A DNA stretch of 20,947 nucleotides from positions 1-20,947 of IMG/VR virus record IMGVR_UViG_3300020470_004444; one strand, written 5' to 3'. Position 1 is the stretch's first letter. Each line of letters begins with the position of its first letter. The notes beneath the pieces are model-generated. The model ran no database searches. It was not told the DNA's origin and was given only the letters and a program-made list of their open reading frames with translations. Made by a program: the position numbers and the translations under genes. This DNA comes from a virus. Below, piece after piece: positions 2,832 through 20,947 of this stretch.

Positions 2832-5800
2832 TTAAGGGCCATAAATTATTTTATCATCACCTTTAGATGGCTTTCCACTATTAACTCTAAGTGTATTTTC
2901 ACCCCCAGTAACAGTAACACTATAAAATGAAGCTGTTGAATAATCCTCATACTGAACATTTAATTGTCCAGCATCCGTAGAACCTGAACGTGGGTTCTGA
3001 GTTCCTTGATACATTCTATCTTTAAATGGTTGACTAAATTTAGTAACATGATTTCTTGGTAAAGTAATTGTACCATCTGAACTTGTTATAAAATATCTTG
3101 TTTTACCTAACATTCTACCAGTGTGATTCGAATCACTACCACTTCCACCTATTAAAGACTGATAAGTAACATTTGCATGAAAGTCTGTATCTATCATTAC
3201 CCTATTATAAAATCTATTACTATCACTAAAATCACTACTTACACTACTACCTGAGTTATTTAGTGATGCAGAATAATATTCCGAATCCCCTATAGAATTA
3301 AATACAAATCTTGTGTCAATATGATATGTATTATAGTTGTTATCTGAGCCGGTATTAAAGTAATTTATAAAGTGTGTATCAGATGAACTTGTTCCCCAAT
3401 TTTTGTGAACACTTGTATATGACTCATTTGCTCTCGAAGCATAATCAATTGTTCCATCTTTTGATGTTACCACAGTTGAACCACCATAAGTTGGTTGAGT
3501 ATTAATTGAACCAGATTTAGGTCTTTCATAAGTAGTGGTGTTTGTGACATTAACACTTATGGAAGAACTTTTTGGTAGTTCATAAGTAGATGTATTTGTA
3601 ACATTAACACTAATTGAAGCTGATTTTGGTTGTATAAATTCAGAATTTGATAAACTTGGGCTTGGACTTATACTACTACTACGAATATTTGGATTTGTTT
3701 CAACACTATGTTTTTCATTTTCATATTTTTGTTTTTCTAAAATAGTTGGTTTTATTTCTACACCAATGTCAGAATTTTTACCACTAAATGTTGAACGAGC
3801 TGGAACAACAAAATTTAAACCTTCAACAATTGATTGATTAAACATATTTTCATGAGCTCTTATAAACGTATTGACATTAACTTCTATTGGATGTGCATCA
3901 AAAAAGTTTTCTCTAAATGTATCAAATTCATCATATGATTGTGAATAATAATTTACTGGATTACCATACAATGTTTCTAAGTTGAATCCACTTAAATTAT
4001 CCAAAATAAAATTGTCAACAAATGATTGTGGTGAACGGTATATTTCTAATTTTGGTGACGTTTTAAACTGTGGTTTTTTACCTAATGAACTTATACCTGT
4101 ATTATTTACACTTAGATTACCAAAAACAGATTTATTTGGATTTATTAAAATAGAGTTATCATTTGGTTTATCATTATTATCTTGTAATGTTAATTTCACA
4201 CTATCAACAATATCAAAACCATAAATTATTGAACCAGTATAAAAATCACCACTACGGGTAATTGTATAATCAGAATAAGTAGTGGTTGGTGAGGAATCTA
4301 CAATATTTAAAATTTGTCCAGACGCTGATATAGATGAAGTTGTATAGTTCTCATTTAATTTAAAATGATAAACTAATTCATCTTTATGTGAATTAATAGA
4401 ATTACCAACAGTTGAAAATTTATTTAATGTATGTTGTCTAAATTTAGAAATACTTAATGGTGTAGCCCACCCCTTTATCTCAGATAATGAACCACTAAAT
4501 ATTTGACCAACAAATAAATTAGATGATGATAATTCATTTCTTGAACCACTTGACTGCCAATTTTGGTTTGCAAAAAATCCTTTTCCACCAAGTGTTGAAT
4601 CTCCAGTAGCTCCACCACTTATAGACATTGTAACATAAGTATAGGTTTTTATTATTTTTTCATCTTGTAATGCACTATGTAATCTATACTCAATTGTACC
4701 TGGACCTGAAGTTGAACCAGTCATTCTTTGTAACATTATATTCCATAATTGTCCATCTGTCATTTCATTGTATGCTAATGACATTGAAAAACCTCTACTA
4801 TCAATAGATGTACCACCCCTTTGAGAGTTGTTTAATCTAAATTCAAATGATGAACTTAATCCATCGGAACTTGGTAATAACTTTAAATCCCAAAGTGTTT
4901 GTGCAGAACTACCACTTGATTTTAATATTGTTTGTGTTTGTGTTGTTTTTTTGTGTTTATACACAAATTCAAGTGTATTAATATTAGCACTATCCATCCA
5001 CCAATCAAGATTTAAAACTCTATCTTGATTAGAATTAAACATATATCTATAAAGTTTTTTTCTACTAGAAACAAACGAAATACTTCCACTTTCATGATTG
5101 AAGTTTGTATCTTGACTCTGTATAGGTTGAGGTGGTGCATCATTGATGACAGTATTATTATCACCAGTCGAAGTAGCTCCACCAAACTCTTGAAACTTCA
5201 ATACATCAGGTGGATAACCATATGTATTTAACAACGCTCTTACTGAATTTTTTGTTCCCTTTGATTTATAAATGTATATTAAGTTATTAAGTGTTTTTCT
5301 CCAAGTATTGTTTCTAATATCATCAATTGAGGTGACACCACTTAAATAACTTCCCAATGAATCTGTTAGACTTCCACTAAATGGATTAATAGCCTGCCAA
5401 CCCATATTGGATAATAACATTGGTAAAGTATTGTTTGGTGGTGAATTGGTTTTCTTATATCCTCGTTTATGTAAAGTTCCCATTGAATCAATATGATTTC
5501 TAATTAAATCATATTGTTCACCTTGTAGATTTAAGAAATCTTTCATATCATTGTATTCAGAACTTTCTTGAATGTAAAGAGGTAGATTATTTTCAAATGA
5601 GTGAATGTTATCGGTATCAAATGTTTCTGCTTTTGTCAACATATCATTGTACCAATTAGTCCATTCTGTTGAACTTGTATGGAATAAATTATCAAATGGT
5701 AAAACATTTGTTGGGTCTTTTAATGTTAATTTAACATCTGTGATTTTTGTTTCTGTTTTTCCATCAGGATGTAAAAACAATTGATTTATTTCACTATCGT

Positions 5801-8741
5801 TAAGTGAACGTAAATAAAATCTTGTTTCATCAAATTGACCATCACCATATCCTAATGCACTACCTGGTCCATTTCCAACTCTTATTCTATATATTACATT
5901 ACTACCTGATAATGGATAACCAGCTAAAGTTTTAACATTAACACCATCAATGTAAAGAGAACCCGTACCAGTGGTTTGATTCCAAGATAAAGCATAATGG
6001 TGAAATTCATTATCGGTTAAATCTGCATGACCTGGATTAGCAGCAAAATCAGATTTATTCAATACTTTGTGGCCTTGGTCGGTTACTTGTCCTTGTATAC
6101 TTGCACCACTTTTTCCTACCCACCAACCATCAACATCATCAAGAGATGAATGATTTACTGCTACATTATCTCGCAAACCACTACCTGAAGACTTGATGTC
6201 TAAGGACATAATTGTTATGTTTGTATCTTCAGTTTTTAACCAAGAAGTAAATGTAAATCCATCAAAGCCTTGGTCTACACCTGAAGATGTTGTGAATGTT
6301 ACTCTACCTGCTTCATTATCAATATTAGAGTTAAAATAAAATAATCCAGAAGCACCAGCATTACTACCACTCCATTTCAATGATGATGATATTTTACCAT
6401 CCACACCAGTTTCTACAGAGGCTGATGTGAATGAATCAGTTCCCCCACCTTCCCAAGAAATAGTTCTATTATTACCACTAACATCAAGTACTTCAAAATC
6501 TCTATCATCAATGGTAATGTTTTCATAATTGTAATGAGCAAATAAACTTGCAGATAAATTGTTTTTATAAAATATTCTAAACAATTCACCACTTGGCATT
6601 ATTGAACCTTTAAATGGTACTCCTACACTTGATGATACAGCTGTTGTTGGATATAAACCCGTAGAGTCTTTAATCGATACAGAACCTGTTTTAACACTTC
6701 CACTTAAAATTGTTATTTTACTTGAACCAGAAGTAAAATCATCATAAGATAAATCTGCCATATCATTATCTATGGTGTTTGGAACAAAGTATGATTGGGA
6801 CGCTTGAAAAATATATCGTTGATATTCACTTCCCGTCATATTAGGATTTAAAATATTATTTTGATATAAAGTGTCATGTGGTAATGATGGTGTTGAATTT
6901 TGATTTCTATTTTCCCAACTTAATAAACTTCCACTATCACCTTGTAGTAAGAATGATAAATAAATTGAACTACTGTAATTAAAAAATGGTTTGTTTTCCA
7001 CTTTATATTTATCAGTAAATAAATCTATATATTGATTATGAAGACCTGATACTTTCTCAGAAGAGTGTTTGTATACAACATTGAATCCATTGTGTTGATT
7101 TAACTCAATTCCCTCACCACTAAATGTTACGGGAATTGTATCAGCATAATTTTTTAAACTTGGTGCTGATGCAGTTGAATCAGTTTGACCATCAAAATAT
7201 AAAAATCTTTCATATGGTGTAAATGTTATAAACTCATTGTTTATTTTATTAAATAAATTTTTTCTTTTTTCAATTATATAAGTAGAGTCACCATTAATAG
7301 AGCTGGAAACATTTAATGAACTTGATATTTCTGAATAATACCCTTGAATTGTTTTAACTTTATTATTGAAGTTTTGTAACTTCTTTTTAGCTGAACCAAA
7401 AAATGTATGATTTGAAAATTCATTAAAGTCTGTATTAAGATTTGGATAATCATATTGACTTGACGATATTAATGAGTTTATTTCAATATCACCAATGGAG
7501 GCAGAATAAACTAATTCATTTAAATTTTGAAATCCAATGTCATTGTTATCAGGATTAATCCAATTCTGTTGAGTATCTGGAATTAATCCATCACCAAAGA
7601 AAACATCAGGTACATCTGAAAAATAAAATATGTCTTGAAGTTGAGTTGTTAATACTTCTCTTTCAATTGTAACCATTTTTAGATTACTGATATTAGATGG
7701 TAGTGGTTCATAAAGTTTTAATATAATGGATTGATTATTTTTACCATCTGTCACGTCATCAAATGCATAATTCATTATTGGAACATGGTCACCATTTCCA
7801 ATATTTAATATGTGTTTAAATTGGTATTTATAGTTTGGATTTGGTGTTACACCATCGTCTAAAAATTCATTTTGACCAAAATTTAATTCATCTGTTAAAT
7901 TTTTAATTGTTTCTGAATTATTAAAAATATCTTCATTAAGTATCTTTAACCTAACTTCTTTTCTTGAAGTTGATATTTGTTTTACTAAAAATTGATAATG
8001 GATTGGTTCATCTTGAATAAAATTACTCAAGTAATAATATTGAGCACCTTGAGGGTCAGGTTGTGATTGTTCGTTATCACCTGGCCCAGCGCCTGGACCT
8101 GCCTCATCTTCAATTTCTGCGTAGAAAGAGGGTGGAGCTCCAGCATCACCTATGTTAAATATTATTTGTCCCTCTTCATCAAGCATGGTTTGTAACATGT
8201 GAGCTATGTCTGGCCTTGAGGCATCACCTGACCATTCTTGAAAATCAAGAATATTTAATATACCATCATTATTAGTATCAAAATCTTCAAACCAATAGGG
8301 TACTGGTAAATTCCCTCCAACTTGTCCCTTAGTAACTTGACTTAAAAAATCAATTTGGATTCTATAATCACCCTGAGGTAATTCAAATTTATTAAATATT
8401 TCATTTGGTTTTATATAAACATTATCACCATTTTTATATATTTTAAAATCATTTAGAATATTTGTACCAAACAAACCACCAATTAATTTCGTTTCAAACT
8501 GATTATTTTCCTTAAAAGGTGATACGTTAACAGAGTAACCAGTATCTAATTCAGATAAAGTAGAAAAGAATATAGCTTTTCCATCAATACCATTTGTACT
8601 GTTAGGTAAATCAACTATATTATCTATAGCTTCAGTTGGGTAGATGGTCAGTCGAATGTAGTCATTTTCACTAAAAATTCCTGTGTTCTGACTAATAACT
8701 AAATCTTTATCTTGTTGATTAAATTCAAATTCTAATGTCAT
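2832..8741 (-). CDS. Giant multidomain baseplate/tail protein, 1969 aa, with tail-protein-I-like core and LamG domains
   Basis: Visible parts in order: a beta-rich N-terminus; a canonical EF/dockerin-type loop DTNNDGILNILD at about residues 154-165, followed by EWSGDASRPDIAH; an acidic Gly/Pro linker (GPGAGPG, about 220); a TPYERFLYF segment near 510; a LamG/concanavalin-like domain at about 800-990 (GFTFTSWLK, HHYALSW, GSLYIDG, DETRFYLRSL); then a helical segment at about 1010-1180 with a KGT-x-x-S-x-R-x-L-L-x-x-YGYPPD motif. That motif resembles phage tail protein I, the partner of gp6/J-type wedge proteins. A second LamG-like domain lies at about 1250-1430, and the C-terminus is Ser-rich with an 18-residue tandem repeat at about 1705-1755. 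The ATG overlaps the preceding stop (TAATG). Placement after gp25-gp6 suggests it replaces or contains the gp7 wedge function while carrying adhesive domains. The tail-protein-I assignment is moderate, the structural role strong. Confidence 0.8.
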   Translation of the reverse strand: MTLEFEFNQQDKDLVISQNTGIFSENDYIRLTIYPTEAIDNIVDLPNSTNGIDGKAIFFSTLSELDTGYSVNVSPFKENNQFETKLIGGLFGTNILNDFKIYKNGDNVYIKPNEIFNKFELPQGDYRIQIDFLSQVTKGQVGGNLPVPYWFEDFDTNNDGILNILDFQEWSGDASRPDIAHMLQTMLDEEGQIIFNIGDAGAPPSFYAEIEDEAGPGAGPGDNEQSQPDPQGAQYYYLSNFIQDEPIHYQFLVKQISTSRKEVRLKILNEDIFNNSETIKNLTDELNFGQNEFLDDGVTPNPNYKYQFKHILNIGNGDHVPIMNYAFDDVTDGKNNQSIILKLYEPLPSNISNLKMVTIEREVLTTQLQDIFYFSDVPDVFFGDGLIPDTQQNWINPDNNDIGFQNLNELVYSASIGDIEINSLISSSQYDYPNLNTDFNEFSNHTFFGSAKKKLQNFNNKVKTIQGYYSEISSSLNVSSSINGDSTYIIEKRKNLFNKINNEFITFTPYERFLYFDGQTDSTASAPSLKNYADTIPVTFSGEGIELNQHNGFNVVYKHSSEKVSGLHNQYIDLFTDKYKVENKPFFNYSSSIYLSFLLQGDSGSLLSWENRNQNSTPSLPHDTLYQNNILNPNMTGSEYQRYIFQASQSYFVPNTIDNDMADLSYDDFTSGSSKITILSGSVKTGSVSIKDSTGLYPTTAVSSSVGVPFKGSIMPSGELFRIFYKNNLSASLFAHYNYENITIDDRDFEVLDVSGNNRTISWEGGGTDSFTSASVETGVDGKISSSLKWSGSNAGASGLFYFNSNIDNEAGRVTFTTSSGVDQGFDGFTFTSWLKTEDTNITIMSLDIKSSGSGLRDNVAVNHSSLDDVDGWWVGKSGASIQGQVTDQGHKVLNKSDFAANPGHADLTDNEFHHYALSWNQTTGTGSLYIDGVNVKTLAGYPLSGSNVIYRIRVGNGPGSALGYGDGQFDETRFYLRSLNDSEINQLFLHPDGKTETKITDVKLTLKDPTNVLPFDNLFHTSSTEWTNWYNDMLTKAETFDTDNIHSFENNLPLYIQESSEYNDMKDFLNLQGEQYDLIRNHIDSMGTLHKRGYKKTNSPPNNTLPMLLSNMGWQAINPFSGSLTDSLGSYLSGVTSIDDIRNNTWRKTLNNLIYIYKSKGTKNSVRALLNTYGYPPDVLKFQEFGGATSTGDNNTVINDAPPQPIQSQDTNFNHESGSISFVSSRKKLYRYMFNSNQDRVLNLDWWMDSANINTLEFVYKHKKTTQTQTILKSSGSSAQTLWDLKLLPSSDGLSSSFEFRLNNSQRGGTSIDSRGFSMSLAYNEMTDGQLWNIMLQRMTGSTSGPGTIEYRLHSALQDEKIIKTYTYVTMSISGGATGDSTLGGKGFFANQNWQSSGSRNELSSSNLFVGQIFSGSLSEIKGWATPLSISKFRQHTLNKFSTVGNSINSHKDELVYHFKLNENYTTSSISASGQILNIVDSSPTTTYSDYTITRSGDFYTGSIIYGFDIVDSVKLTLQDNNDKPNDNSILINPNKSVFGNLSVNNTGISSLGKKPQFKTSPKLEIYRSPQSFVDNFILDNLSGFNLETLYGNPVNYYSQSYDEFDTFRENFFDAHPIEVNVNTFIRAHENMFNQSIVEGLNFVVPARSTFSGKNSDIGVEIKPTILEKQKYENEKHSVETNPNIRSSSISPSPSLSNSEFIQPKSASISVNVTNTSTYELPKSSSISVNVTNTTTYERPKSGSINTQPTYGGSTVVTSKDGTIDYASRANESYTSVHKNWGTSSSDTHFINYFNTGSDNNYNTYHIDTRFVFNSIGDSEYYSASLNNSGSSVSSDFSDSNRFYNRVMIDTDFHANVTYQSLIGGSGSDSNHTGRMLGKTRYFITSSDGTITLPRNHVTKFSQPFKDRMYQGTQNPRSGSTDAGQLNVQYEDYSTASFYSVTVTGGENTLRVNSGKPSKGDDKIIYGP
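3477..3629 (-). repeat. In-frame 54-bp tandem repeat (about 2.8 copies) within the 1969-aa gene
   Basis: Copies start at 3629, 3575 and 3521, exactly 54 nt apart. They encode PKSASISVNVTNTSTYEL, then PKSSSISVNVTNTTTYER, then a degenerate PKSGSINTQPTYGGS. The protein is more conserved than the DNA: many third positions differ (for example GTT/GTC, ACA/ACC, AGT/TCA), so the duplication is not recent. Alternating Ser/Ile/Val suggests a beta-strand or stalk unit. It lies near the C-terminus, after the second LamG-like domain. Confidence 0.85.
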
Positions 8742-11215
8742 TACAATGCCCCATCTTTATTACTTCTTCTTTTTGGAACTTTTATAAATGAATCTCTTCT
8801 CATTGGTTGACCTTTTCTTGTTTTTTTAACTTTATAGTCTCCAAACAATAATCCTTTGTTTGAATTACCACTTGAATCAATTATCGACTTATCAACTAAT
8901 TGACCTGTGTTTATTTCTAATTTACAACTTTGTTTTAAATCATTATCCTGATTATCACTTATAAATATCTGTCCGACTGAACTTTCCATTGGAAATTTAT
9001 TTATACCACCACTATAATAATTAAAATTATTATACTTTATAATAGTTTCAATTGTAGGATTGAAAAAGGTTTCAACAGGTTGTTCTAAACCATTACCATA
9101 TGGTATTAATCCATCATAAATTGATTCTCCCCATTCAGAAACATATGATGGATAAGTATACTCCGAACCTAAACCTGAACCACCAGCATTACGAAAAACA
9201 CTTACAAGGTGTGCAATGTCTGGTCTTCCTGATTGTTCCCATTGTGATATATCTGAACTATTAAGATTACCACCACTAATATTTATTTCTTCAACATATT
9301 GAGGAAATGGTAAGGTTGCTAAATATTCTGGTGTTATATTTAATTCTTGAGTTACAATATCAATATTTAGTAAATCATAAATACTATAACTTTTGTTAAA
9401 ATATCTAACTTGTTCTAAATCCATTGTTTCTATATTTTTTCCCATTTCATCATTTTCTAAATCATTGATTAAAAACTTTTCATCAATAATGTCCAACTCA
9501 CCCAATTTACCACCACTTAATGTGTTTTGAATACTTGTTTTATATTTTGAATCTTCACTAACACCACCAATGATTGCAGTTGTATAAGGCCACGGAATAG
9601 TTGTATAATCACTCCCACCAACATCTGCAAAATCAGGATATTCATTTGGTGGTACATCTAAATAAATTCTTGATGTTACAAGTTTCCATCTTCCAATTTC
9701 AAAATCTGGATTAGCTGCTGTATTACCATTACCATCAAATACACTAAAAATAATAAATTTTATATTTTTAATTCCAGGAGTTGTATATAAATTAGCTGGT
9801 GTATTTGTATCTCCCAATTTATATATTTTATATAAATTTTGATTTTGTTTTTCACTATATTGTATATTATTTTCTGGTTTTGAATCTAACCAATCTTCAA
9901 TGGTTTTAAATTTGTTTTCAGTATCATCCCAATCAATTACAAAATAATAAAAACCTGTTTGAGCAGGTTCACCTAAATCCTCTCCAAGTAAATCCTTAAT
10001 TTCAATATTAAATGTAACAGTTAATGGATTAGAAGATTTCATAATTAAATTAAAATCATCATGATAACTTTGTAAATCAACATAATTATTACCAAGTTGA
10101 TTATTTTGACTAAATCCAAATACTGTAAGTGGGAAAAAATCAGGATGTCTTATCAAAGAATCTGGATTATCTGATGCATCTTGAACATTATCAAGTTGGT
10201 TAGTTGGACTTATTGCATCTAACCATAGATAATCATTAAAAATATTTTGATTTACTGAAACTCTTGGTGACATTGTATCTATAAATTCTCTATAATTATT
10301 AACATTTGAAAAATAATTTTTTACACCAGATTGGGCACTTATCGTTACTTTTAATGAAGAGATTGTCCAAGCAGGTGACTCAGCTCCACCTCCACCACCA
10401 TCTCCATCATAAGTTTTAGTAGCATTATCAAAAGTAGCTGAATATGTCGTACCAGTAAAATTATTGCCTGTTTTTATAAAAAAGTCCTCATTGTTTATTT
10501 TAAAAATTTGATATCTTCTTTTTCTTTTGTCCGTATTTATAGGCCAAAACATTTTTTTATCACCTTTCATATAAACAACTATGTAAATTGGATTATATTG
10601 AGCCTCATTAAATAATTGAGTTTGAGATGGTGATGGTTCATTTGACTCAAGTTTAAATGTTTCACTTAAATTATCAACATCCCATTCACTTGGAGCACCT
10701 TCAAAATCACTAAGAAAAATATTTTGTGCACCTTGAGCAAAATTTTCAACTATTGGTACACCCTCTACTTCAGAGATATTACCTAAATCTTCACCTTCAG
10801 ATTTATTACCAAATCCTTGTGAATAAAATTTCCAATTATCATTATCATTTAATTTATTTTTTAATGTACTGAATCCAGCAGTGGTTGGGTCTTGACCAAA
10901 AGCTTCTTCAGAAAATATCCACGCAATTACTTTAACATTTTTTGTTGTACCTGAAACATTTCTACTTTTAACATATAGATTGTCAATTTTAATAAGTGGT
11001 TCACCCTCATATGATAAGTTTTTTTCAATAATAGCTTCATTTAATTCATCACCAACACTCTTTGTAAATAAATCTTTGTTTTGAAATTTATCCCAATTCA
11101 GAGGTAAACTGGTAGAGTTTTCATAATCATAAACAGTTTCACTATCATCAAAATTATATTGTGATGTGTCTCCACTTTTTGGTCTATCTAAAAGTATTTT
11201 TTTTATTTCAGGCAT
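8741..11215 (-). CDS. Putative baseplate-associated protein, 824 aa, paralogue of the upstream 1440-aa protein
   Basis: No named family is certain. A poly-Gly stretch (DGDGGGGGAESP) lies near residues 268-280. A degenerate PKD-like segment (FVIDWDD near 428, then a later TTPG-x-K-N-I-K-F) is followed by IIGGVSEDSKY (about 546), a YFNKSYSIYDLL block (about 605), and a dockerin-related segment at about 635-675 (LPFPQYVEEI, SGGNLNSSDISQWEQ, SGRPDIAHL) whose calcium ligands are mostly replaced. It ends with DSSGNSNKGLLFGDYKVKK and a basic tail. The IIGG, YFNK and DSSGN-type blocks recur in the same order in the 1440-aa protein. The SGRPDIAH segment recurs in the 1969-aa protein. Both ends use TAATG overlaps; GGAG at 11226-11223 is its ribosome binding site. 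A role as a peripheral baseplate scaffold or adhesin is inferred from context. Confidence 0.75.
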   Translation of the reverse strand: MPEIKKILLDRPKSGDTSQYNFDDSETVYDYENSTSLPLNWDKFQNKDLFTKSVGDELNEAIIEKNLSYEGEPLIKIDNLYVKSRNVSGTTKNVKVIAWIFSEEAFGQDPTTAGFSTLKNKLNDNDNWKFYSQGFGNKSEGEDLGNISEVEGVPIVENFAQGAQNIFLSDFEGAPSEWDVDNLSETFKLESNEPSPSQTQLFNEAQYNPIYIVVYMKGDKKMFWPINTDKRKRRYQIFKINNEDFFIKTGNNFTGTTYSATFDNATKTYDGDGGGGGAESPAWTISSLKVTISAQSGVKNYFSNVNNYREFIDTMSPRVSVNQNIFNDYLWLDAISPTNQLDNVQDASDNPDSLIRHPDFFPLTVFGFSQNNQLGNNYVDLQSYHDDFNLIMKSSNPLTVTFNIEIKDLLGEDLGEPAQTGFYYFVIDWDDTENKFKTIEDWLDSKPENNIQYSEKQNQNLYKIYKLGDTNTPANLYTTPGIKNIKFIIFSVFDGNGNTAANPDFEIGRWKLVTSRIYLDVPPNEYPDFADVGGSDYTTIPWPYTTAIIGGVSEDSKYKTSIQNTLSGGKLGELDIIDEKFLINDLENDEMGKNIETMDLEQVRYFNKSYSIYDLLNIDIVTQELNITPEYLATLPFPQYVEEINISGGNLNSSDISQWEQSGRPDIAHLVSVFRNAGGSGLGSEYTYPSYVSEWGESIYDGLIPYGNGLEQPVETFFNPTIETIIKYNNFNYYSGGINKFPMESSVGQIFISDNQDNDLKQSCKLEINTGQLVDKSIIDSSGNSNKGLLFGDYKVKKTRKGQPMRRDSFIKVPKRRSNKDGAL

Positions 11216-14200
11216 TAAAAAGCTCCATTTACTTTAGTTGTTTTAATAATGCCTCGTTGTCTTGATTTTTTTAATTGTAGTGTTTCATTATCAAATTCAG
11301 GACTAAAATCTTCAATAAAAAAACCATAATTTTTATTACCACTAACATCATTTAATGTGTCAATTTCTATTTTTTGATTAGTGATGTTAAGCAATAAACT
11401 TTGACCCGATTCATATTCATCTGTTATTTTACCATTTAATGGAAATGATATATGTGTATTTCCAGTTTGAACTGATATTGGAAATAAGTCTTTAATAAAT
11501 TTACCATTAGCTCCGTGTTTTGGTAATACAGGATAATATGAACCATCATCCCAATCTTGATTGGTAGACTCATTTATTTGTGTGTTAAAATATTTTGTAG
11601 GAATTTCAAAAACCATACTACCTCTCCAAGCCATTGCACCAAGTTCACTTACACCATTTTCATTATAGGATGTTTGGTCTGGATAATTTTCCATAAAATT
11701 GTATACATTTGGACTATCATAATACACATTAATATCATCATGAGTGCTTACACCAGCTGATGTACTACCATCAAAAGTTACACCATTTATAGCTATACGC
11801 ATAACGAATAAATTCATATCACCACCACCAGCATTACTATCATTATCAAACTCTATTTTTATTTCTTGAACGTCTAAACTTCTATCAATTGGTATATTGA
11901 AATCTATATTTTCAAAATCACTATTGTTTATGTTCGTATCAGGTGGTTTTGCATTTTCAAGAAACTCATCGTAATAAACTACCCCATTTATTATAACATT
12001 GTAATGTGGTAGTGTACCAAGACCATCTGTAGTTCCAGCTAAACGAATCTCCAATTCATTTGTTAATCCATTTCTAAGTTTAAAACTATAATTTTGAGGT
12101 ATTATGTTTTTCCAATATCTTTCATTGTCAGGAGCACCAACTTCCCTTAAATCATCTTCTTCAAATCCAAATAATTCCCAAATTGATTTTGGTTCATTGT
12201 AATATTTTATACAAGTTAAATCACAATCACCAATTCCTTTTCCTAATTCCTCTCTAATTGGTGAAATACCTTTGTACACTACTGGATTTGAAGGCAGTAA
12301 ATCCCAATTAATACCAAGAAAATTATTAAAATTGTAATAAGTATTCATATCTGGAGAATCAGTTCCAGCAGGGTTAAAAAAATCAAATTTATATATTTTT
12401 CCCTCTTGAAGATATTCTATTATTTCGAAATCCTCTAAACCAAACTCTGGTTCTTCCTTCCATTCTCCAGTTTCAATATCTCTAATTACATATGCTTCTA
12501 AAAATTCTTGAGTAGCTTCTTCACTACTGAATCTATATATTACCTGTAGTTCTTCTGGTATGCTATCTTTAGTTACTTCATATCTATATGAAAACTGCTC
12601 TCCAGGCATAGCTTCTGCATCAAAAAATTGCTCTCCTATTCCCTCCGGCCATATAACAGGTTGGAGTTGATATAGATTATATTTTTCAGAAATTCTTTCA
12701 GTCATATAACTTGGTAATACTTCTAAATTACTATCAATTTGGTTTTCCATTTTTAAAAGAGCTAATTCTGTTTTTAATTTATCACCATCATATTTAAAAT
12801 CTATACTTATTTTTTCATTATCTAAAAATCCAAGTTGTCTTTTTGTTTTTTTATAATAATTACTTTGGTCTGATATTCCACCAATTATTGGTGTAGTGTT
12901 TTTGTATGGGATAAATGAATAACCATCACTTCCAAAATATCTAAAATCCTCATCTAATCCTTCATTAATGTTTATCACTAATTTAAATTTTTTGTTATAA
13001 GGAATACCTATTATGTTATTATCTTTATCAGTTTTCACTCTCATCATTGTTCCCGTAACCTCAAATATACCACTGGTTTCATATGTGTGATACAATGCAG
13101 TGTCTTCATCAATTTGTTGAGGTGTTGATGTAAATTCATTTGGTGAACCATCACCCCAATCAATATCGTGAATATAAAACCTACCAAATTTAAAATCTTG
13201 ATAAATTGGTGTTCTTGTAACACCAAATGTTTCATCAATTGGATAGGTGGGATAAAAATAAAATTGAGCTTCTAAAGGGGCCTGTGAATCTTTATATTGT
13301 TGTGGTTGTAGTTCTTTATCATAATATTTTGTTAAATCTGCAGTTCCATAATTACCAACAGATATTTTTTTTCTAACATCAACATCAGGTGTGAACTCAT
13401 ATGATTCATAACATTCAATATTATCAATTAATACCCTACCTTCAAAAGCACTTTCAGTTTGTAAAAATAATGTTAAGTTACCAACACCATCGGTTGGAAA
13501 TTGAGACTCATTACTAATATATTGTTCCATCCCACTAATACCTTCATTCGTATCACCTTCTCCTGAGTTATTAGTGTATAATCTAGCAAGTATGAAACAA
13601 GTATTGTCAGGAGTGAATTGTCTACTAAAACTATAACCACTATTGTCATCATAAGTCCATCGTTCTCCATTCCAATACGCAACAACTAAATCCATTGGAG
13701 CAGTATGGGGAGGTGGCCCACTATGGTTTTCATCTTCACCAAAATCATCTCTACTATCACCATAATCAATTTCATCTGCCATAAACATTTCTTCTTGTTC
13801 TGAAACTGTACCTACATACATTAAATATGCTTCAAGGATTCTACCATCATTTTGTAATCCAGTTCGTTGGTCATCACCAACGCCACCAGTATCACCTAAA
13901 GCTGATGCAACAGTGTTTATATCATGTTCATCATATTTACCAACTTCAGCGTGTCTTACTCTTCTTTGAGTTCCATTAGGATGTATTATGTAAAAGAAAT
14001 CTATATTTGGATTACTTCTATCATAACCAGGTACTTTAAAAAATATTTCACCAGGGTCTTCACCGGGTTGTTTATCTTTATTAGAATTTGTATTTAATTG
14101 TATTTCAACTGGGCCACCATTTGCCTCATCATCAAATGTACCACCATATGGAATACCATGTATAAGACCATCATTTAAATGGTCATCCGTTAAATTAAAA

Positions 14201-15537
14201 GTAAATTCAAAATCTTCCCATTCATCGATTTCTTTATTTTGAAACCTACCTGTTCCACCATAATCTAAATCTTTTCTACTTTCAAAAGATGTGTTTTCAT
14301 ATGTGTCTTCACCTTCAATTAAATAATTGATGTTATTTTCTAAAAGTGAATTAAAACTTCCAGGAGCTTCAAAAAATGCATAGTAACTATAAGGAAGTGA
14401 ATTTTTTCCTGATTTTGGTAATTCATGAAATTGAGTTCCTAAAATACCAACATCAATTTTAGGCATCTTAGGTTCACCATCGAACCCTATAAATGCATTT
14501 GTGGTTTTCATTTTAAATTTTATTTTTAGTGAACTGTATGGATTTATTGGATTATCATTAAATTTATCATAAATGTTTTGAGCTTGATTTAACACTCTAT
14601 ACCAACCATTATTAAATATGTTAGGATTTTCAACTTTTATTCTGCCATTACCATGATGATTATTCATTAAAAACCAATTAAAAATATATTTTTGACCATT
14701 ACCACCCAACTCTGTATCAGCATACTCTCGATTTATATAATCAAGCATTTTGTCACCCTCTTGAAAATTCATAAAACACAAACATCTATTGTTTGAATAT
14801 GCTTCAGGTGTTGTTATCCACATCGCAATATGTGGTACGTCTTGTTCAAATGAATCTTCATTGTACAAAAAATAACCATTACCAATAAAACTATGTTGTC
14901 CCCTCAAGGTTACATGTGTATCTTGACCAGTATCGGATGTCATGGTGCTTTGACCTGTAGGATGAAGTTCAGGGTCTATATCTTGACCCATTGTTGAAGC
15001 GAAAAAATTTGTTATTTCTCTATCTTCAATATTAGTTCCAAAAGCAGATTTAATTCTACCCCAATAATTTATACCACTATCACCATTATTTAATTCTAAG
15101 GATAGTGGAACATAATTACCAATAACATCTCCTTGAAAAGGCCCAGGAGTTGCTCTTAAAGATAAAAATCTCCAATCACCATCAGGTTCTACAACAAATG
15201 GTATATTATTTCCATCTCTATTTAATTCAACGTATTTACTTCTTACAAATTTACAATCTCCATTTGTAATTAAATTTGGTTTAGTAGATGATTTAAATGG
15301 GGAACGTAATATATCTGGAAAACTATCAGCAAAATTGTTATCATCATCGAATGAAAACATACCCAATGCAATTCTACCATCTTGATTTGAATCTTTAAGT
15401 CCTTGATTTGTATTTTGAAAAGAATCTAAATTAATGTCCATACCACTATATACATCATAATGTTCTAATAGTGTTTGTTCAATTGCAACACCACTCACAC
15501 CGAATCCTGAAGAAGTTGATTCTGAAACAAAACTCAT
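11215..15537 (-). CDS. Large baseplate-associated protein, 1440 aa, with PKD-like domain
   Basis: Near the N-terminus (about residues 50-56) is an incomplete calcium-loop-like DSNQDGRI. From about residue 85, NLITNGDCKF resembles the opening of CBM4/9-type jelly-roll modules, and VLIDNIECYE near 702 resembles their closing strand; the spacing is too long for one simple module, so this is tentative. A PKD-like domain lies at about 775-865, with IDWGDGSP and YHTYETSGIFEVTGT, the two hallmark motifs. After it come TPIIGGISDQSNYY (about 883), IKYYNEPKSIWELFGF, and the end DVSGNKNYGFF with a basic tail; these blocks are shared with the 824-aa protein encoded next. No signal peptide or membrane segment is seen. 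The gene starts 1 nt before the preceding stop region (gap of one base) and ends in a TAATG overlap. Likely a surface-exposed wedge or fibre-base protein. Confidence 0.75.
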   Translation of the reverse strand: MSFVSESTSSGFGVSGVAIEQTLLEHYDVYSGMDINLDSFQNTNQGLKDSNQDGRIALGMFSFDDDNNFADSFPDILRSPFKSSTKPNLITNGDCKFVRSKYVELNRDGNNIPFVVEPDGDWRFLSLRATPGPFQGDVIGNYVPLSLELNNGDSGINYWGRIKSAFGTNIEDREITNFFASTMGQDIDPELHPTGQSTMTSDTGQDTHVTLRGQHSFIGNGYFLYNEDSFEQDVPHIAMWITTPEAYSNNRCLCFMNFQEGDKMLDYINREYADTELGGNGQKYIFNWFLMNNHHGNGRIKVENPNIFNNGWYRVLNQAQNIYDKFNDNPINPYSSLKIKFKMKTTNAFIGFDGEPKMPKIDVGILGTQFHELPKSGKNSLPYSYYAFFEAPGSFNSLLENNINYLIEGEDTYENTSFESRKDLDYGGTGRFQNKEIDEWEDFEFTFNLTDDHLNDGLIHGIPYGGTFDDEANGGPVEIQLNTNSNKDKQPGEDPGEIFFKVPGYDRSNPNIDFFYIIHPNGTQRRVRHAEVGKYDEHDINTVASALGDTGGVGDDQRTGLQNDGRILEAYLMYVGTVSEQEEMFMADEIDYGDSRDDFGEDENHSGPPPHTAPMDLVVAYWNGERWTYDDNSGYSFSRQFTPDNTCFILARLYTNNSGEGDTNEGISGMEQYISNESQFPTDGVGNLTLFLQTESAFEGRVLIDNIECYESYEFTPDVDVRKKISVGNYGTADLTKYYDKELQPQQYKDSQAPLEAQFYFYPTYPIDETFGVTRTPIYQDFKFGRFYIHDIDWGDGSPNEFTSTPQQIDEDTALYHTYETSGIFEVTGTMMRVKTDKDNNIIGIPYNKKFKLVININEGLDEDFRYFGSDGYSFIPYKNTTPIIGGISDQSNYYKKTKRQLGFLDNEKISIDFKYDGDKLKTELALLKMENQIDSNLEVLPSYMTERISEKYNLYQLQPVIWPEGIGEQFFDAEAMPGEQFSYRYEVTKDSIPEELQVIYRFSSEEATQEFLEAYVIRDIETGEWKEEPEFGLEDFEIIEYLQEGKIYKFDFFNPAGTDSPDMNTYYNFNNFLGINWDLLPSNPVVYKGISPIREELGKGIGDCDLTCIKYYNEPKSIWELFGFEEDDLREVGAPDNERYWKNIIPQNYSFKLRNGLTNELEIRLAGTTDGLGTLPHYNVIINGVVYYDEFLENAKPPDTNINNSDFENIDFNIPIDRSLDVQEIKIEFDNDSNAGGGDMNLFVMRIAINGVTFDGSTSAGVSTHDDINVYYDSPNVYNFMENYPDQTSYNENGVSELGAMAWRGSMVFEIPTKYFNTQINESTNQDWDDGSYYPVLPKHGANGKFIKDLFPISVQTGNTHISFPLNGKITDEYESGQSLLLNITNQKIEIDTLNDVSGNKNYGFFIEDFSPEFDNETLQLKKSRQRGIIKTTKVNGAF

Positions 15538-15538
15538 T

Positions 15539-17146
15539 TTAATCTACCTTAAAACCACGAGCTCGTAGTAAGTCACTTCGTGAAATTATTTCTACTTTAC
15601 ATTTATTTCCTAAACCTGAAAAATTTGTATACTCTCCAGTAGATAATAAATGATTTAACCAATAATCAGGTGTTACTACTAAATCTGCATTACCTAAACC
15701 ATCTGCAAATGACATTTCTTCTTGAACTTGAGGATTATAGGTTGCACATATAAAATACCATTCATTAAAATCTTCAGGTATGTAGGTTGATTGTAAAAGT
15801 TTTAATTCATCATTTCCATAGTCATTCAAATCACCTATATTGTATGACTTCCTAGCATCTCCAATTACACTACCATCTAATCTTAAATCACCACCTAAAC
15901 CAACATGAGAATCTTTTAATCCCTCATCATTCCCAGTTGAGTAAGAACCAGATTCTCTAACTTGTAATCTAACAAATCTAGCAGTGTCTGAGTCTTTAAA
16001 TATTCTTTCATCATAACCAGGTCCTACTTCAAATGTTCCTTCTTCAACAACTTTACCCCAAGTTGTTTCTGTTGATAAAGACGCATATGAATCATTTTTA
16101 TTCAATACATAGGTTTCTAATTTAAACCCAAATGGATTTGAATTTCTAGTTGGGTTTCCAAAGTTAAACAATGTTCCACTTGATACCTTATCTAAAAATC
16201 TAACCCACATTGTAATTGTAAAACCACCAGTCCCATCCGTGTTAAGATATGTTAAATTATTAGGGTCTAAACCTTCAATAAATTCTTGATTAGTGTTACG
16301 AATTATAATTCCTTGATTTGGATTTCTGAATTGTAAATATCCAGACGATTGATTTAGATACTCAGGTCTGTCATCTTGTAATACAAATGGTTCTTCCAAT
16401 ATGTCGGTTAAATAAGGAAGTATTGTGTTATAAATATCTTCAATGGTTCTTGTTGAATTAGTATCATTAGCTGTTGATTTTAATCTATGAATAAAAGCGT
16501 CTTCTTCATTAATATTTCCATCGGTGTTTTCTTGAGCATATGAGATACTATTATTTTTACTGTATTGAAGTGAACCAGTCCAATTATTTGTTGTATCTTC
16601 TCTATCAACAACTCCATCATCATTTAAATCAAATTCAGGTAATTCTGGTGGAAGTAATGCATTTAACTCTTGAAAAAATCTAATTATTCTAGCTTGTCTA
16701 GTGTCACCAGTTGGAAGTAATTCAAATATATTCGTGTCAAGAAATTCATTGGCTTTTTTAACATCTACAGTAGATTGTTGTTGAGACAATGGTATGAATT
16801 GACTTACGTTTAATGGATTACCTTCACCAAAAACTAAATCTGTAATTGTTCGTCCCCCATCTGGAAATCCACCACCAACTATACTTATACTAATAGTATC
16901 ATCCACACCTGGTTCAACAACTATTGTAAATTCACCAACGATTTGGTCAGCTATCAATTGTAAATTATCTTCTACATTGGCTTCAACATCTTTTTGAAAA
17001 AGAGCAAGAACTCCATCACCTTGACCAGTTTGCAATTGTCCATTACGAATAAATTTTTGATTGGCTTGGACATCAGGCGTATCGATAAGTGGACTTTCTA
17101 TTAAAGCATCAGCTATTCTGTCCAGTAATAATTCTAATTCTACCAT
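15539..17146 (-). CDS. Putative baseplate/tail protein with dockerin-like pair and LamG-like domain, 535 aa
   Basis: The N-terminal 160 residues are helical or mixed and unrecognised (ELELLLDRIADALIESPLID and onward). A textbook EF/dockerin loop DLNDDGVVDRED sits at about 172-183, preceded by LPPELPEF and followed by NNW. A second loop, QENTDGNINEED at about 204-215, has Gln in place of the first Asp. Together they resemble a dockerin-type pair that would bind one or two calcium ions. From about 290 to 500 runs a LamG/concanavalin-like beta-sandwich, with GGFTITMWVRF near 305 and EWYFICATYNP near 463. The end (CKVEIISRSDLLRARGFKVD) is short and polar. It lies 3 nt after the 377-aa gene and 1 nt before the 1440-aa gene, so it is part of the same transcript. 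The likely role is carbohydrate or surface binding on the baseplate periphery. Confidence 0.75.
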   Translation of the reverse strand: MVELELLLDRIADALIESPLIDTPDVQANQKFIRNGQLQTGQGDGVLALFQKDVEANVEDNLQLIADQIVGEFTIVVEPGVDDTISISIVGGGFPDGGRTITDLVFGEGNPLNVSQFIPLSQQQSTVDVKKANEFLDTNIFELLPTGDTRQARIIRFFQELNALLPPELPEFDLNDDGVVDREDTTNNWTGSLQYSKNNSISYAQENTDGNINEEDAFIHRLKSTANDTNSTRTIEDIYNTILPYLTDILEEPFVLQDDRPEYLNQSSGYLQFRNPNQGIIIRNTNQEFIEGLDPNNLTYLNTDGTGGFTITMWVRFLDKVSSGTLFNFGNPTRNSNPFGFKLETYVLNKNDSYASLSTETTWGKVVEEGTFEVGPGYDERIFKDSDTARFVRLQVRESGSYSTGNDEGLKDSHVGLGGDLRLDGSVIGDARKSYNIGDLNDYGNDELKLLQSTYIPEDFNEWYFICATYNPQVQEEMSFADGLGNADLVVTPDYWLNHLLSTGEYTNFSGLGNKCKVEIISRSDLLRARGFKVD

Positions 17147-17149
17147 ATC

Positions 17150-18283
17150 CTATTTCCTTTTCACTATAAATTCAAAATCATCATCAAATATTTGTTCTTG
17201 TCCGTCATCGTATTTTAATTTCAATAAAATTTTATAAACTCTATCAGGATAAAATCCATCTAAGTATTGAATAAAATAATTTGAGTTTTCATCACAGCTA
17301 AGTTTTGTATAACTTGTTCCCGTTGAGTCTTCAAATGGAACAATGAACTCATCAGTAGCAACATCTTTAATTGCATATGAACCACTACCCTCAGTAATAA
17401 ATGAACCAGTTACAGTTTGTACTGAATTAGTAAAAGTTTTTTGAATATATCTTTTTCTCGCACCAACTCTAAACTTAACACGCTCACCAACTTTATAACT
17501 TTCCCTTAATCCTTGCATGTATAAAAAGTTATCAGCTAATCCACTCATTGTTAATTCATTTAATGAACCTGTAGAGAATGATGAATCATTCCAACGAACT
17601 TCCAATCTTGGTGAAAAAATAGTATGTGTGTTTCTTGAAAAGAATTTTAAATGTCCGAATGTTGTTTCATCTGTTTCTTGACTACCACTAAAATTTATTA
17701 ACATTCCATAATTTGAATATTGTCCATTATACCACATACGAAACATATTTGTTATATCAACATCAATATCAGGTGATTGATTTGAAAATGATTGTTCTGA
17801 TTGACTAACATTTAAAACTGAAACACCAGCATTACTCCAAGTTAAAGCATTACCTCCAATTGGATTACTACGGTTTTCCCAACTACAACCATTAGTGTTT
17901 TTTGGTCTATCACCAAACTTACCAGTACCCTCAGTCCAAGATTGTGATATTGGTTGAATGGCTAAAGTATATTCTTCAGTCATTTCGGCATTACCCTCAG
18001 CTTCAAATAATCTTAAATAAACTTTTGTACCACTAAGAGCAGCAGGGCCTCTAAGTGGAGATATAGTCCCATCAGAAAGTGACTTAGATAATTCAGTAAA
18101 CTCGTCTCCACTAAATTGAACTAATGCTCTTGTTTGGTGGTCAAATGAATTGTTAAAAAATTCTTTTTTAACTTCAAGTATTTGGTCTCTTCCAAAGTTT
18201 TGGTCTCTAAAAGAAGTTCCATCTATTTTACTTGAACCACTTGAAATCCAAGTGTCTTGATTTGGAAAAATAAAATGATGCAT
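17150..18283 (-). CDS. DNRLRE-like structural protein, 377 aa
   Basis: The N-terminal half matches the style of DNRLRE/CBM96-type beta-sandwich domains: DTWISSGS at about 10-17, NFGRDQILEVKK near 30, RALVQFSG near 52, YLRLFEAEG near 92, then QSWTEGTG and WSNAGVSV. VDITNMFRMWYNGQYSNYGM (about 175-194) and the strand FSPRLEVRWND follow (about 220-231). Such domains occur in secreted adhesins and glycan-binding proteins; here the protein lacks a signal peptide, consistent with a virion component. The C-terminal 130 residues are a separate beta-rich part (KVGERVKFRVGARKRY, DGFYPDRVYKILLKLKYDDG) resembling an Ig-like or fibre-base fold. The start overlaps the gp6 stop (TAATG), with AGGGAG upstream, implying coupled translation with the wedge protein. 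It may be a gp6-adjacent wedge accessory; the exact role is unknown. Confidence 0.75.
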   Translation of the reverse strand: MHHFIFPNQDTWISSGSSKIDGTSFRDQNFGRDQILEVKKEFFNNSFDHQTRALVQFSGDEFTELSKSLSDGTISPLRGPAALSGTKVYLRLFEAEGNAEMTEEYTLAIQPISQSWTEGTGKFGDRPKNTNGCSWENRSNPIGGNALTWSNAGVSVLNVSQSEQSFSNQSPDIDVDITNMFRMWYNGQYSNYGMLINFSGSQETDETTFGHLKFFSRNTHTIFSPRLEVRWNDSSFSTGSLNELTMSGLADNFLYMQGLRESYKVGERVKFRVGARKRYIQKTFTNSVQTVTGSFITEGSGSYAIKDVATDEFIVPFEDSTGTSYTKLSCDENSNYFIQYLDGFYPDRVYKILLKLKYDDGQEQIFDDDFEFIVKRK

Positions 18284-20544
18284 TATCTAACTCTCCCTTG
18301 TATGTTTTCGTTTGGATTTTTTAATTCAAAAACAGATGGTGTGCCTGTGTTTGGTGGTAATATAATTGTCCCATCATCTGAAAGTGCTATTTTGAAATCA
18401 TATTTATAACCATAACCATCAGTACCACCATCAGCTATTACAAAACTTCCATCACTATTACCATCACCATCTAAATCAGCACCAGTACCAGACGTACTGA
18501 ATGAATAATTATATGTTGGTGAAGTTAATGATTCACCATCATCATAAAAATAATCTAAATCTTGAGTTATAGTAACATGACCGATTGAAAGAACACCCTC
18601 AACTCCCATCAATTCATATTCTAATTGACTTTTATAAATTGGTTGATTGAATTGCATTTTTTCAATTCTAAAATAATCTTTTATTTTTTGAATACAATTT
18701 AATTTTACTTGTTGTTTATCAGCATATTTTTCAGCTATGACATCAAATATTACACCAAAGTTAACAACATACCCATCGTTAAATGTTATTATATCTGTTA
18801 ACATTTTAAAATTTTGTAAATAGTTATTTAAATTAGTTAATAAAGTTTGTGGAACTGAGTCATTAGTTCCTAATGATGTTGCATGAGGATTACCAATTAA
18901 ATTCTTTTGTCCATTGTATGTTAAACAATAAATATTTATTGTTGTCAAACCTGGATTTTCTATAAATTGGCTTATAAAATTTTGTAACACAGTTCCCGCA
19001 GATGATATACTATTTAAAGTACCATTTGCCGAGTTTAAATTATCAATAACGCCATCCAAAGTATTTGTTGTTGTATCAGGATTATCTATGATGTCTTGTA
19101 ATATATTAATTGTAGAAGTTAAATTACTATTAGCAAATTCAGATAATTGATTAATGGATGCAGCAGCTATATCAGCTCCACCCACTTGTGGTTGATAAGA
19201 TGCATCTCGTGTAACATATACTTTCGCTATACCACCATACTGAGAATCCATATTTAAAATACGAGCTTCATAATCTTCTTTTGTAACACATCTATTTTGT
19301 GTTGCAAAAAATGCTTTAGCTTTTTCTTTTATTTCAATTATTTCCTCTTTGTTTCTACCACCAATAGCTGGTGAGTTATTTATAACACTTGTCAATTGAG
19401 CATTTGTATTTCCATTATCAGCAGTCAATGTTGGTGTGGTTATAATATTACCAGCTGGTATGTTTGATTGTGAACCACCTCCAACACGATAGGTGATTGT
19501 TAAAGTTGTATTGTTTGGTGTTTCACCAAGTGTTGAATAAAAATCACCTAACAATGGGTCTATACCATCATTTAAATCACTTGTTTGACCAGGAATGGTA
19601 ATTCCTAATTGCCCGACATCAATATAATCCTCAGTTATGGTTTGTCCGTTTTTCAAAACACCATTTCCAAATACTAATGATGTAGTGTTATCAACATTAG
19701 TTTCACGGGTAAATCTTTTTGTTGTTTTTCTATAAGTTAAAGAAAAAGGAACTGCTGTCGATGAAGGTAGTCCACCCTCTGTCGCATAAGCAGAATTTCT
19801 ATCAATATCATCAGTATAATGTGTTTTTATTGGTATTTGGTCTTGTGCTAAAAAATCTACTTCATACCAATTATTCCCGTTTGAATCCACACAAGAAACA
19901 ATGTCAACAACATTAGTATCAGGTATTGTAAGTTTTCTAAATTTTTCAGGAGCTCCAACTTGAAATGATATTGTTTTTTCTTTAGCACTTACAGCTGTCA
20001 CATTCCTTGATAAAGTATATGATGTTGCTAGTCCAGCGTCATCTTCTGTTCCAATAACAGCTGTGTCGTTTGATTGTGTTATTTGAAAATCTATATGTTC
20101 AAGAGTTGTAAACACAATGTTTGAATTTGAAATGGATTCTATTTCAATACCTGGATTAAATATACCACCATTACTATAATCTATTTTAGACCTATCTGTT
20201 GAAGCAGTTACCTCCGATGTAAAGGTTAATGTAACGTATGATGGAATAATTGGTTTGACTTTATAACCAAACATTTTAGCCATATTAATTACATTTCTTC
20301 TTTCTGATGCTAATGGTAATAACATCTCTTTATATTGTTGGTCGATATAAAACGATAACACATCACCAACATATGCGTTCATTTCTAATAACATCATACC
20401 AGGTGATGTTTCATTAAAATCTTGATAGGTATCAGGAAAATAAGATTTAGCATAATTCATTAAAGATTCTTTTAAACTTGAAAAATCTTTATTTAAATAA
20501 TTTACATTTGATTCTTTAAAATTTTCATTACCATATGTTGGCAT
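18283..20544 (-). CDS. gp6: Baseplate wedge protein, gp6/baseplate-J-like, 753 aa
   Basis: The N-terminus carries the wedge hallmark: NYLNKDFSSLKESLMNYAKS, then ETSPGMMLLEMNAYVGDVLSF (about 45-65; two adjoining blocks) and ERRNVINMAKMFGYKVKP. The middle has NRCVTKEDYEARIL (about 418-432), typical of gp6 and gpJ proteins, and the late region (about 585-660) has DGYVVNFGVIFDVIAEKY and the MGVEGVLSIGHVTI strand. In T4, gp6 dimers clamp gp7 to form the wedge core and connect neighbouring wedges in the baseplate ring. This copy is longer than T4 gp6 (about 660 aa). It has a helical insertion at about 460-540 and a C-terminal extension with DLDGDGNSDG (about 690). The start has TGGAGA at 20556-20551 and lies 13 nt after gp25. 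The assignment is confident. Confidence 0.93.
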   Translation of the reverse strand: MPTYGNENFKESNVNYLNKDFSSLKESLMNYAKSYFPDTYQDFNETSPGMMLLEMNAYVGDVLSFYIDQQYKEMLLPLASERRNVINMAKMFGYKVKPIIPSYVTLTFTSEVTASTDRSKIDYSNGGIFNPGIEIESISNSNIVFTTLEHIDFQITQSNDTAVIGTEDDAGLATSYTLSRNVTAVSAKEKTISFQVGAPEKFRKLTIPDTNVVDIVSCVDSNGNNWYEVDFLAQDQIPIKTHYTDDIDRNSAYATEGGLPSSTAVPFSLTYRKTTKRFTRETNVDNTTSLVFGNGVLKNGQTITEDYIDVGQLGITIPGQTSDLNDGIDPLLGDFYSTLGETPNNTTLTITYRVGGGSQSNIPAGNIITTPTLTADNGNTNAQLTSVINNSPAIGGRNKEEIIEIKEKAKAFFATQNRCVTKEDYEARILNMDSQYGGIAKVYVTRDASYQPQVGGADIAAASINQLSEFANSNLTSTINILQDIIDNPDTTTNTLDGVIDNLNSANGTLNSISSAGTVLQNFISQFIENPGLTTINIYCLTYNGQKNLIGNPHATSLGTNDSVPQTLLTNLNNYLQNFKMLTDIITFNDGYVVNFGVIFDVIAEKYADKQQVKLNCIQKIKDYFRIEKMQFNQPIYKSQLEYELMGVEGVLSIGHVTITQDLDYFYDDGESLTSPTYNYSFSTSGTGADLDGDGNSDGSFVIADGGTDGYGYKYDFKIALSDDGTIILPPNTGTPSVFELKNPNENIQGRVR

Positions 20545-20557: not shown

Positions 20558-20947
20558 TTAATATCCGCCACCCCCTACTGAAGATTCTGAATTGATAGTT
20601 GAACCATCACTAAAATTTAAAGTCACAGAATCTAAGGTATTTGGGTCTTGTGTGATGTTAAATAATATTTTTACTCTTATTTCATTAGCCCCCACAACTT
20701 GATTACTTTCAATTGTGTCTATTTTAATATCTCTTACTTGTACAAAGGGTAACCATAATTCAAACCTATCTAATATAGCATCTTCTACCGCAATTAAATT
20801 TTCACTTTTAATATGTTCAAATAGTAGTCCTCTTAAATTTAAACCTAAGTTAGGTTGAAAAAGTCTTTCACCTTCATTGGTTTGTAATAAATTTCTTATA
20901 TTGTTTTTAACAGCTTCAATGGTTGTTGAAGTTGATGCAAAAAATCC
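20558..20947 (-). CDS. gp25: Baseplate wedge protein, gp25-like (N-terminus cut by window edge)
   Basis: The frame enters at the right edge and gives 129 residues ending in TAA at 20560-20558. IEAVKNNIRNLLQTNEGERL, followed by FQPNLGLNLRGLLFE, is the conserved core of the GPW/gp25 family (helix, then the acidic-Gly-x-R and P-x-x-G turn). Next come ENLIAVEDAILDRFELWLPF and the strands VRDIKIDTIESN and NEIRVKILFNIT. T4 gp25 is 132 aa, so only a short N-terminal piece is probably missing here. In T4 it joins the gp6-gp7 wedge core and contacts the inner baseplate and sheath, and its order before gp6 is seen in marine T4-like phages. An unusual Gly-rich tail (SSVGGGGY) ends the protein. It precedes gp6 by 13 nt on the same transcript. 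Confidence 0.93.
   Translation of the reverse strand, partial: GFFASTSTTIEAVKNNIRNLLQTNEGERLFQPNLGLNLRGLLFEHIKSENLIAVEDAILDRFELWLPFVQVRDIKIDTIESNQVVGANEIRVKILFNITQDPNTLDSVTLNFSDGSTINSESSVGGGGY

Follow-up and report, generated by a model that had tools for sequence, protein, structure and literature searches.

That a phage baseplate can carry carbohydrate-binding modules (CBMs) is a general idea that is already known from other phages. We consider it here for a fragment of an uncultured phage, IMG/VR record IMGVR_UViG_3300020470_004444, the whole of which (20,947 bases, positions 1 to 20,947) is referred to as the window, and in which genes for wedge proteins similar to gp25 and gp6 are followed by a run of large proteins with lectin-like modules. 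Evolved Dit proteins in siphophages of lactic acid bacteria reportedly contain CBM inserts in the loops of a conserved distal-tail scaffold; they differ from the proteins of the window in being siphophage Dit proteins, in their scaffold, and in their CBM families.

The Herelleviridae phages Deep-Blue and Vp4, whose hosts are Gram-positive, have CBMs in baseplate wedge and tail proteins, and Vp4 Gp119 was shown to bind cells, as stated in excerpts of the report (PMC11406892). The likeness to the window is twofold in these excerpts, as CBM folds occur within wedge-region proteins of contractile-tailed phages, and as Vp4 Gp119 has CBM inserts that its sister, Deep-Blue Gp177, does not have (PMC11406892). 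The window likewise contains a CBM in a wedge-region protein that varies among relatives. In contrast, its modules are predicted CBM60, LamG, and DNRLRE domains, and its protein families are unrelated to those of Deep-Blue and Vp4 as far as PHROGs shows. A second contractile injection machine with baseplate CBMs is AlgoCIS, where two CBMs are built into a baseplate extension, the Alg11 spike cage; Alg11, however, cages the spike of a non-phage system, and no presence/absence series is seen in the excerpts of that report (PMC8894135). Searches of the literature available to us found no paper linking LamG, a carbohydrate-binding module, and a phage baseplate, and on DNRLRE in phages they gave one unrelated annotation only.

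Results and Discussion

We read the genes that follow gp6, with a probability that we put at roughly 50%, as encoding the outer-baseplate scaffold of a contractile-tailed phage that carries exchangeable glycan-adhesion modules. The gene order is gp25, gp6-like, then proteins of 377, 535, 1440, 824, and 1969 amino acids (aa) and three smaller ones, all of the genes under discussion being on the minus strand, and the order gp25-gp6-DNRLRE-535-1440-824-1969, in which DNRLRE denotes the 377-aa protein, is seen repeatedly in the gene maps of relatives. The order of the framework is kept across these relatives, while the insertion sites within it hold CBM60, a LamG-like domain, a module that we call RPDI, a third cassette, or nothing. 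The modules fall into two classes. CBM60 (4 of 30 sequences) and the first LamG-like domain of the 1969-aa protein (12 of 21) are cassettes, all-or-none at fixed sites. The DNRLRE domain, the 535-aa protein, the PKD-like region, and the second LamG-like region are fixed, and probably constitute the baseplate framework. Since the lectin-like modules come and go between relatives, they probably help the phage, from their fixed framework, to hold on to sugar-coated cells, and CBM60 and the first LamG-like domain are credible adhesion modules as judged from these patterns.

The original prediction had placed a cluster of sugar-binding modules at 15539-18283, in consecutive genes. The open reading frames (ORFs) exist with the lengths given, and the interval does hold the 535- and 377-aa genes, but those for the 1440- and 1969-aa proteins lie outside it and are separated by the 824-aa gene, so that they are not strictly consecutive.

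Relatives were collected by scans of viral contigs, which gave 122 for the DNRLRE protein and 231 for gp6 (the best 80 kept in each case), 6 for the 1440-aa protein, and 28 (27 loci) for the 1969-aa protein. Loci are designated by L numbers, and several of them lie on a shared contig. The alignment of the 1440-aa protein (A1) holds 30 of the 36 distinct complete homologues, L019, L020, L024, L058, L108, and L110 being omitted for size, and that of the 1969-aa protein (A10) holds 21 of the 26 listed homologues, omitting three distant phages, the near copy L154, and the 407-aa L167; other alignments hold 59 of 65 rows (A4) and 53 (A5) and 50 (A9) of 84. A prophage or cellular origin was rejected, as a scan of genome contigs with the DNRLRE protein gave one partial match of 35% (Salipiger). 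No tRNA was found in the window.

The 1440-aa protein (11215-15537) behaves as a scaffold with several insertion sites, as evidenced by its occupancy in the 30 sequences: residues 681-920, 1081-1160, and 1361-1440 are full in 97-100% of them, and residues 1161-1320 in ∼30%. At the site designated S3, the window contains a CBM60 domain (residues 1162-1258; 11764-12054), which Pfam scores at 32.8 bits in the whole protein and at 38.1 bits alone, over a cut-off of 28.2. This optional insert, overlooked in the original prediction, is the best sugar-binding candidate of the cluster. The contents of S3 in the 30 sequences are CBM60 in 4, RPDI in 3, the third cassette in 3, other inserts in 2, and a short stretch of 4-15 residues in 18. 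On the scaffold tree the state of S3 needs 10 changes, and a single fully supported clade of 11 contains four sequences with CBM60, three with RPDI, and four that are empty. The CBM60 copies (six aligned) are 39-62% identical, versus 67-74% for the scaffolds that carry them. The profiles used for CBM60, RPDI, and the third cassette were trained on inserts of the window family, and matches to the training rows are no proof; the CBM60 copies of L067 and L110 are outside these rows. Pfam CBM60 scores both of them under its cut-off and gives no match in L088. A sequence search of the PDB with the 1440-aa protein gave nothing useful, and phmmer with the window copy of CBM60 found no solved CBM60 there.

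The PKD-like region of the same protein (12928-13395; alignment A6) is fixed in 30/30 sequences. Over the stretch WGDGS...HTY, the family profile matches 4xed (labelled Peptidase M14) at E 0.0046, and we take the matched chain to be a PKD domain. Pfam PKD reaches only E 0.09, under its cut-off, in one relative (L015), so the PKD-like domain of the original prediction finds modest support. Two homologues of the 1440-aa protein, in L015 (10775-17194) and L038 (9206-15586), also contain an intein-like or Hint domain near the N terminus (approximately residues 90-254), which runs from C-FVAGTKV to LTHN-S inside low-complexity linkers (PT-HINT, 1.2e-8 and 8.5e-10); PT-HINT matches 3/30 members of alignment A1.

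The 1969-aa protein (2832-8741) shows a similar arrangement in the 21 aligned sequences. The site of its first LamG-like domain (5697-6524) is occupied in 12, and the other 9 have only 7-11 residues there. To explain this state, the tree of the protein core requires a minimum of 4 changes, and well supported branches force 3 of them. In 4/4 relatives, chosen for having an insert there, Pfam recognizes Laminin_G_3 at 6.9e-27 to 4.6e-12. The window copy itself, which is 50% identical to that of L138, matches no LamG family of Pfam at E <= 0.5, and a search of the PDB with the profile of this domain gave nothing useful. The second LamG-like region (4302-5069; alignment A8) is filled in nearly all 21 rows (occupancy near 1.0), and Pfam LamG was found there in none of the proteins scanned. 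Of the two LamG-like domains proposed for this protein, the first is thus upheld through its relatives, and the second goes without Pfam recognition. The protein (window 4302-8741) also has a strongly conserved stretch at residues ∼1041-1180, KSKGTKNSVRALLNTYGYP, which may resemble the gpI/gp7-type wedge motif, a likeness that would suggest the 1969-aa protein as the wedge partner of gp6.

The RPDI module, a repeated EF-hand-like element that also escaped the original prediction, is found in the window in two proteins. The 824-aa protein (8741-11215; alignment A2), whose position is kept in relatives, contains a degenerate copy of the EF-hand/dockerin-like loop at residues 626-719 (9059-9340; profile match 9.7e-26), and the 1969-aa protein contains a copy with an intact DxNxDG loop at residues 141-213 (8103-8321; 3.6e-13). 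In the latter family the module, at residues 137-250, is present in 5/21 sequences and missing in 16/21. The iterated profile gives 63 copies: the 1440-aa class accounts for 36 of them, the 824-aa class for 20, and the 1969-aa class for 6, and a single copy lies among 1577 other distinct ORFs. The consensus consists of the EF-hand-like loop DINGDGELNSED, then W and RPDI. On these sequences Pfam returns weak EF-hand matches in single members only and no dockerin; the resemblance to dockerin is our own assumption.

The two genes that follow gp6 behave differently from the cassettes. The 377-aa DNRLRE protein (17150-18283) exceeds the cut-off of NCBIfam NF033679 (42 bits versus 34) and that of Pfam CBM96 (PF24517; 30.2 bits versus 26). 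Its AlphaFold2 (AF2) model is of low confidence, with a predicted local distance difference test (pLDDT) score of 54.3. In this model residues 1-231 align by VIA-align with the chondroitin-sulphate-binding CBM 8wab (Z 11.0 over 157 residues, root-mean-square deviation 3.5; Foldseek E 3.3e-3), and also with prodomains of the transforming growth factor (TGF)-beta type at Z ∼7 to 11, and residues 249/250-376 (∼17153-17533) align with immunoglobulin (Ig) V domains at Z 6.3-6.5. On the basis of the 8wab and Ig V alignments, the protein looks like a CBM-type fold fused to an Ig-like fold. The DNRLRE domain that had been proposed for it holds, both by family score and by fold. PDB sequence searches with the protein and with its DNRLRE profile gave nothing useful. 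The protein is occupied nearly end to end across 50 rows, and all 49 close relatives aligned are 62-93% identical to the window copy. It adjoins gp6 also in the Microcystis phage Mel-JY01, in the immuto phages of Flavobacterium, and in the uncultured LR756508, at 28-31% identity. Its presence after gp6 even in phages of very different hosts suggests that the protein belongs to the basic equipment of such baseplates. We considered it as a variable receptor-binding part and rejected this, since it is fixed and conserved. In one locus (L102 6163-12013), two DNRLRE paralogues on either side of a 1138-aa ORF replace the usual single gene.

The 535-aa protein (15539-17146), for which a LamG-like domain had been proposed, is a conserved tail protein that is full across 59 rows except for the stretch ∼401-440 (occupancy 0.66). 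No LamG family is found in any of the 59 sequences, the window copy included, and Pfam has no family at E <= 0.5 in the protein. The AF2 model (pLDDT 76.7) has no Foldseek match at E <= 0.001 in the PDB or BFVD, and the 535-aa profile meets only chance matches in the PDB. The VIA-align rows are mostly concanavalin A (ConA)-like, LamG, or pentraxin folds, all at Z <= 4.0, which is suggestive only of a ConA/LamG-like C-terminal half (∼15554-16345). With the sequence families, Foldseek, and the profile search all empty, a proven LamG domain in this protein was rejected.

The placement of the cluster in the baseplate follows from its neighbors. The gp25-like wedge protein (20558-20947), whose 5' end is cut by the contig, is recognized by Pfam GPW_gp25 (38.2 bits, cut-off 27.2) and by phrog_261 (3.1e-17), and the 753-aa gp6/J-like wedge protein (18283-20544) by phrog_219, baseplate wedge subunit (3.8e-23), and by tblastn to annotated baseplate wedge proteins. 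The two adjoin, as in the T4-like baseplate. PHROGs gives no match at E <= 0.01 for any of the eight proteins after gp6, and tblastn of the 535-, 1440-, and 824-aa proteins and the CBM60 domain against phage records gave nothing useful. The Pfam families of gp7, gp8, gp9, gp10, and gp11 were found in no window protein, though they are found in the Vibrio phage phi-ST2; distant equivalents could escape such a search.

Within gp6 there is an apparent recombination junction (18548-18748), as seen in sliding nucleotide and protein identity. The inner part of the gene is ∼98-100% identical to L085 in DNA, with one 150-base bin at 0.94, and this identity then falls to 0.59, at which point (window ∼18550-18750) that to L007 climbs to 0.99. 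From the junction to the last gene, the window tracks the L007/L142 contig at 90-94% DNA identity overall. The switch fits the exchange of the outer baseplate as a single block, and the genes after gp6 appear to have recombined as one unit.

Control phages show that the window is not alone in having lectin-type domains after gp6, though their variety here is high. In the cyanophage ACG-2014d (L170 22489-40261), the place after gp25-gp6 is likewise taken by a protein with two Laminin_G_3 domains over cut-off, together with YHYH; the cyanophage, however, has one protein of ∼6800 aa where the window has five genes, and no DNRLRE or CBM60 occurs in the 5900 residues scanned. In phi-ST2, gp10 has a CBM_5_12-like match under cut-off (24.4 versus 26.2), and gp7, gp8, gp9, and gp11 have no such domain. 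Mel-JY01, immuto, and LR756508 share the order gp25-gp6-DNRLRE and have a large relative of the 1969-aa protein, but far fewer or shorter proteins lie between DNRLRE and that relative. Among the nine proteins scanned, neither CBM60 nor LamG was found, and CBM96 appeared once, weakly. With only two control phages and three distant relatives, no rate can be derived. The "unusually rich" of the original prediction is only partly apt, as the LamG domains of the cyanophage protein mean that the cluster is not unique. The window's 366-aa protein corresponds to five consecutive related genes in Mel-JY01 (L002 28999-37945), a phage named in no paper that we found.

In the mechanism that we propose, the genes after gp6 would make the outer baseplate, or wedge periphery. 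The DNRLRE and Ig-like protein, the 535-aa protein, the PKD-like region, and the core of the 1969-aa protein would assemble on gp6 as the framework, from which the optional modules would be displayed outward. These could then make weak, multivalent, and probably calcium-dependent contact with the surface polysaccharide of the host before the particle is committed by its fibres or receptor-binding proteins. By exchanging the cassettes, and the entire block after gp6, the phage would change its adhesion and leave the inner baseplate untouched. Several observations weigh against this reading. Most modules within 15539-18283 are fixed, as befits a structural role, and the DNRLRE protein in particular, conserved and next to gp6 across very different hosts, fits better as a structural part of the wedge than as a variable lectin. 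None of the cassettes is essential, since 18/30 relatives are without one at S3 and 9/21 are without the LamG-like domain. On the scaffold tree, the presence of CBM60 needs 4 changes, versus 3.8 with shuffled labels, and well supported branches force only one; with no such excess, it is not proven that CBM60 itself was exchanged repeatedly. The outward-facing placement of the modules is one that we infer, and the junction in gp6 could instead be an assembly chimera.

In a structural alternative, the beta-sandwich modules are filler of a large baseplate, their lectin folds serve assembly and bind no glycan, and their presence or absence is neutral drift. It would account for the position and 62-93% identity of the DNRLRE protein (directly after gp6 also in Mel-JY01, immuto, and LR756508), for the fixed state of the 535-aa protein, the PKD-like region, and the second LamG-like region, and for the unproven LamG of the 535-aa protein. 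We nevertheless consider it doubtful, as CBM60 and the first LamG-like domain insert cleanly, all or none, and are assigned to their families independently, as CBM60 diverges faster than its scaffold, and as a comparable wedge CBM binds cells according to excerpts of PMC11406892. The optional cassettes, above all RPDI, might instead be calcium-dependent linkers or dockerin-like docking modules between tail proteins, so that their variation reflects assembly partners. The confinement of 62 of the 63 RPDI matches to the 1440-, 824-, and 1969-aa classes and the loop in the consensus agree with this proposal, which we nonetheless judge unlikely, given the weak EF-hand matches and missing dockerin in Pfam and given that it is silent on CBM60 and LamG. 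The modules might also bind material other than the host, such as particles, exopolymer gels, or mucus, and so concentrate phages near hosts. The domain types are compatible with this, and Ig-like capsid proteins of other phages reportedly bind mucus, but the placement by gp6 in the baseplate rather than in the capsid favours contact at infection, and we judge such binding quite improbable. Multivalent glycan adhesion, as the original prediction had it, is thus partly supported as an interpretation, and the observation behind it partly confirmed: the concentration of such folds after gp6 is real, and CBM60 and the first LamG-like domain behave as exchangeable adhesion modules, but the modules of the interval that it singled out are the fixed ones.

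Conclusions

Tentatively, and with more doubt than for the locus itself, the results could be extended to widespread uncultured contractile-tailed phages whose baseplate is a plug board: three neighbouring proteins would offer fixed sites for the swapping of lectin-like cassettes, and the entire outer baseplate would change hands as a unit across the gp6 junction, so that adhesion range evolves through the proteins of the wedge periphery and not through fibres. If the modules are only structural, the locus would explain how annotation by hidden Markov models (HMMs) comes to call baseplate proteins sugar-binding. Should the cassettes prove to be adhesins, the many relatives would make up a series provided by nature, one framework with different lectin modules, and the sugar specificity of phages that have no known host could be tested with isolated domains. 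The wedge proteins, and not the fibres, would then draw attention as the carriers of adhesion range.

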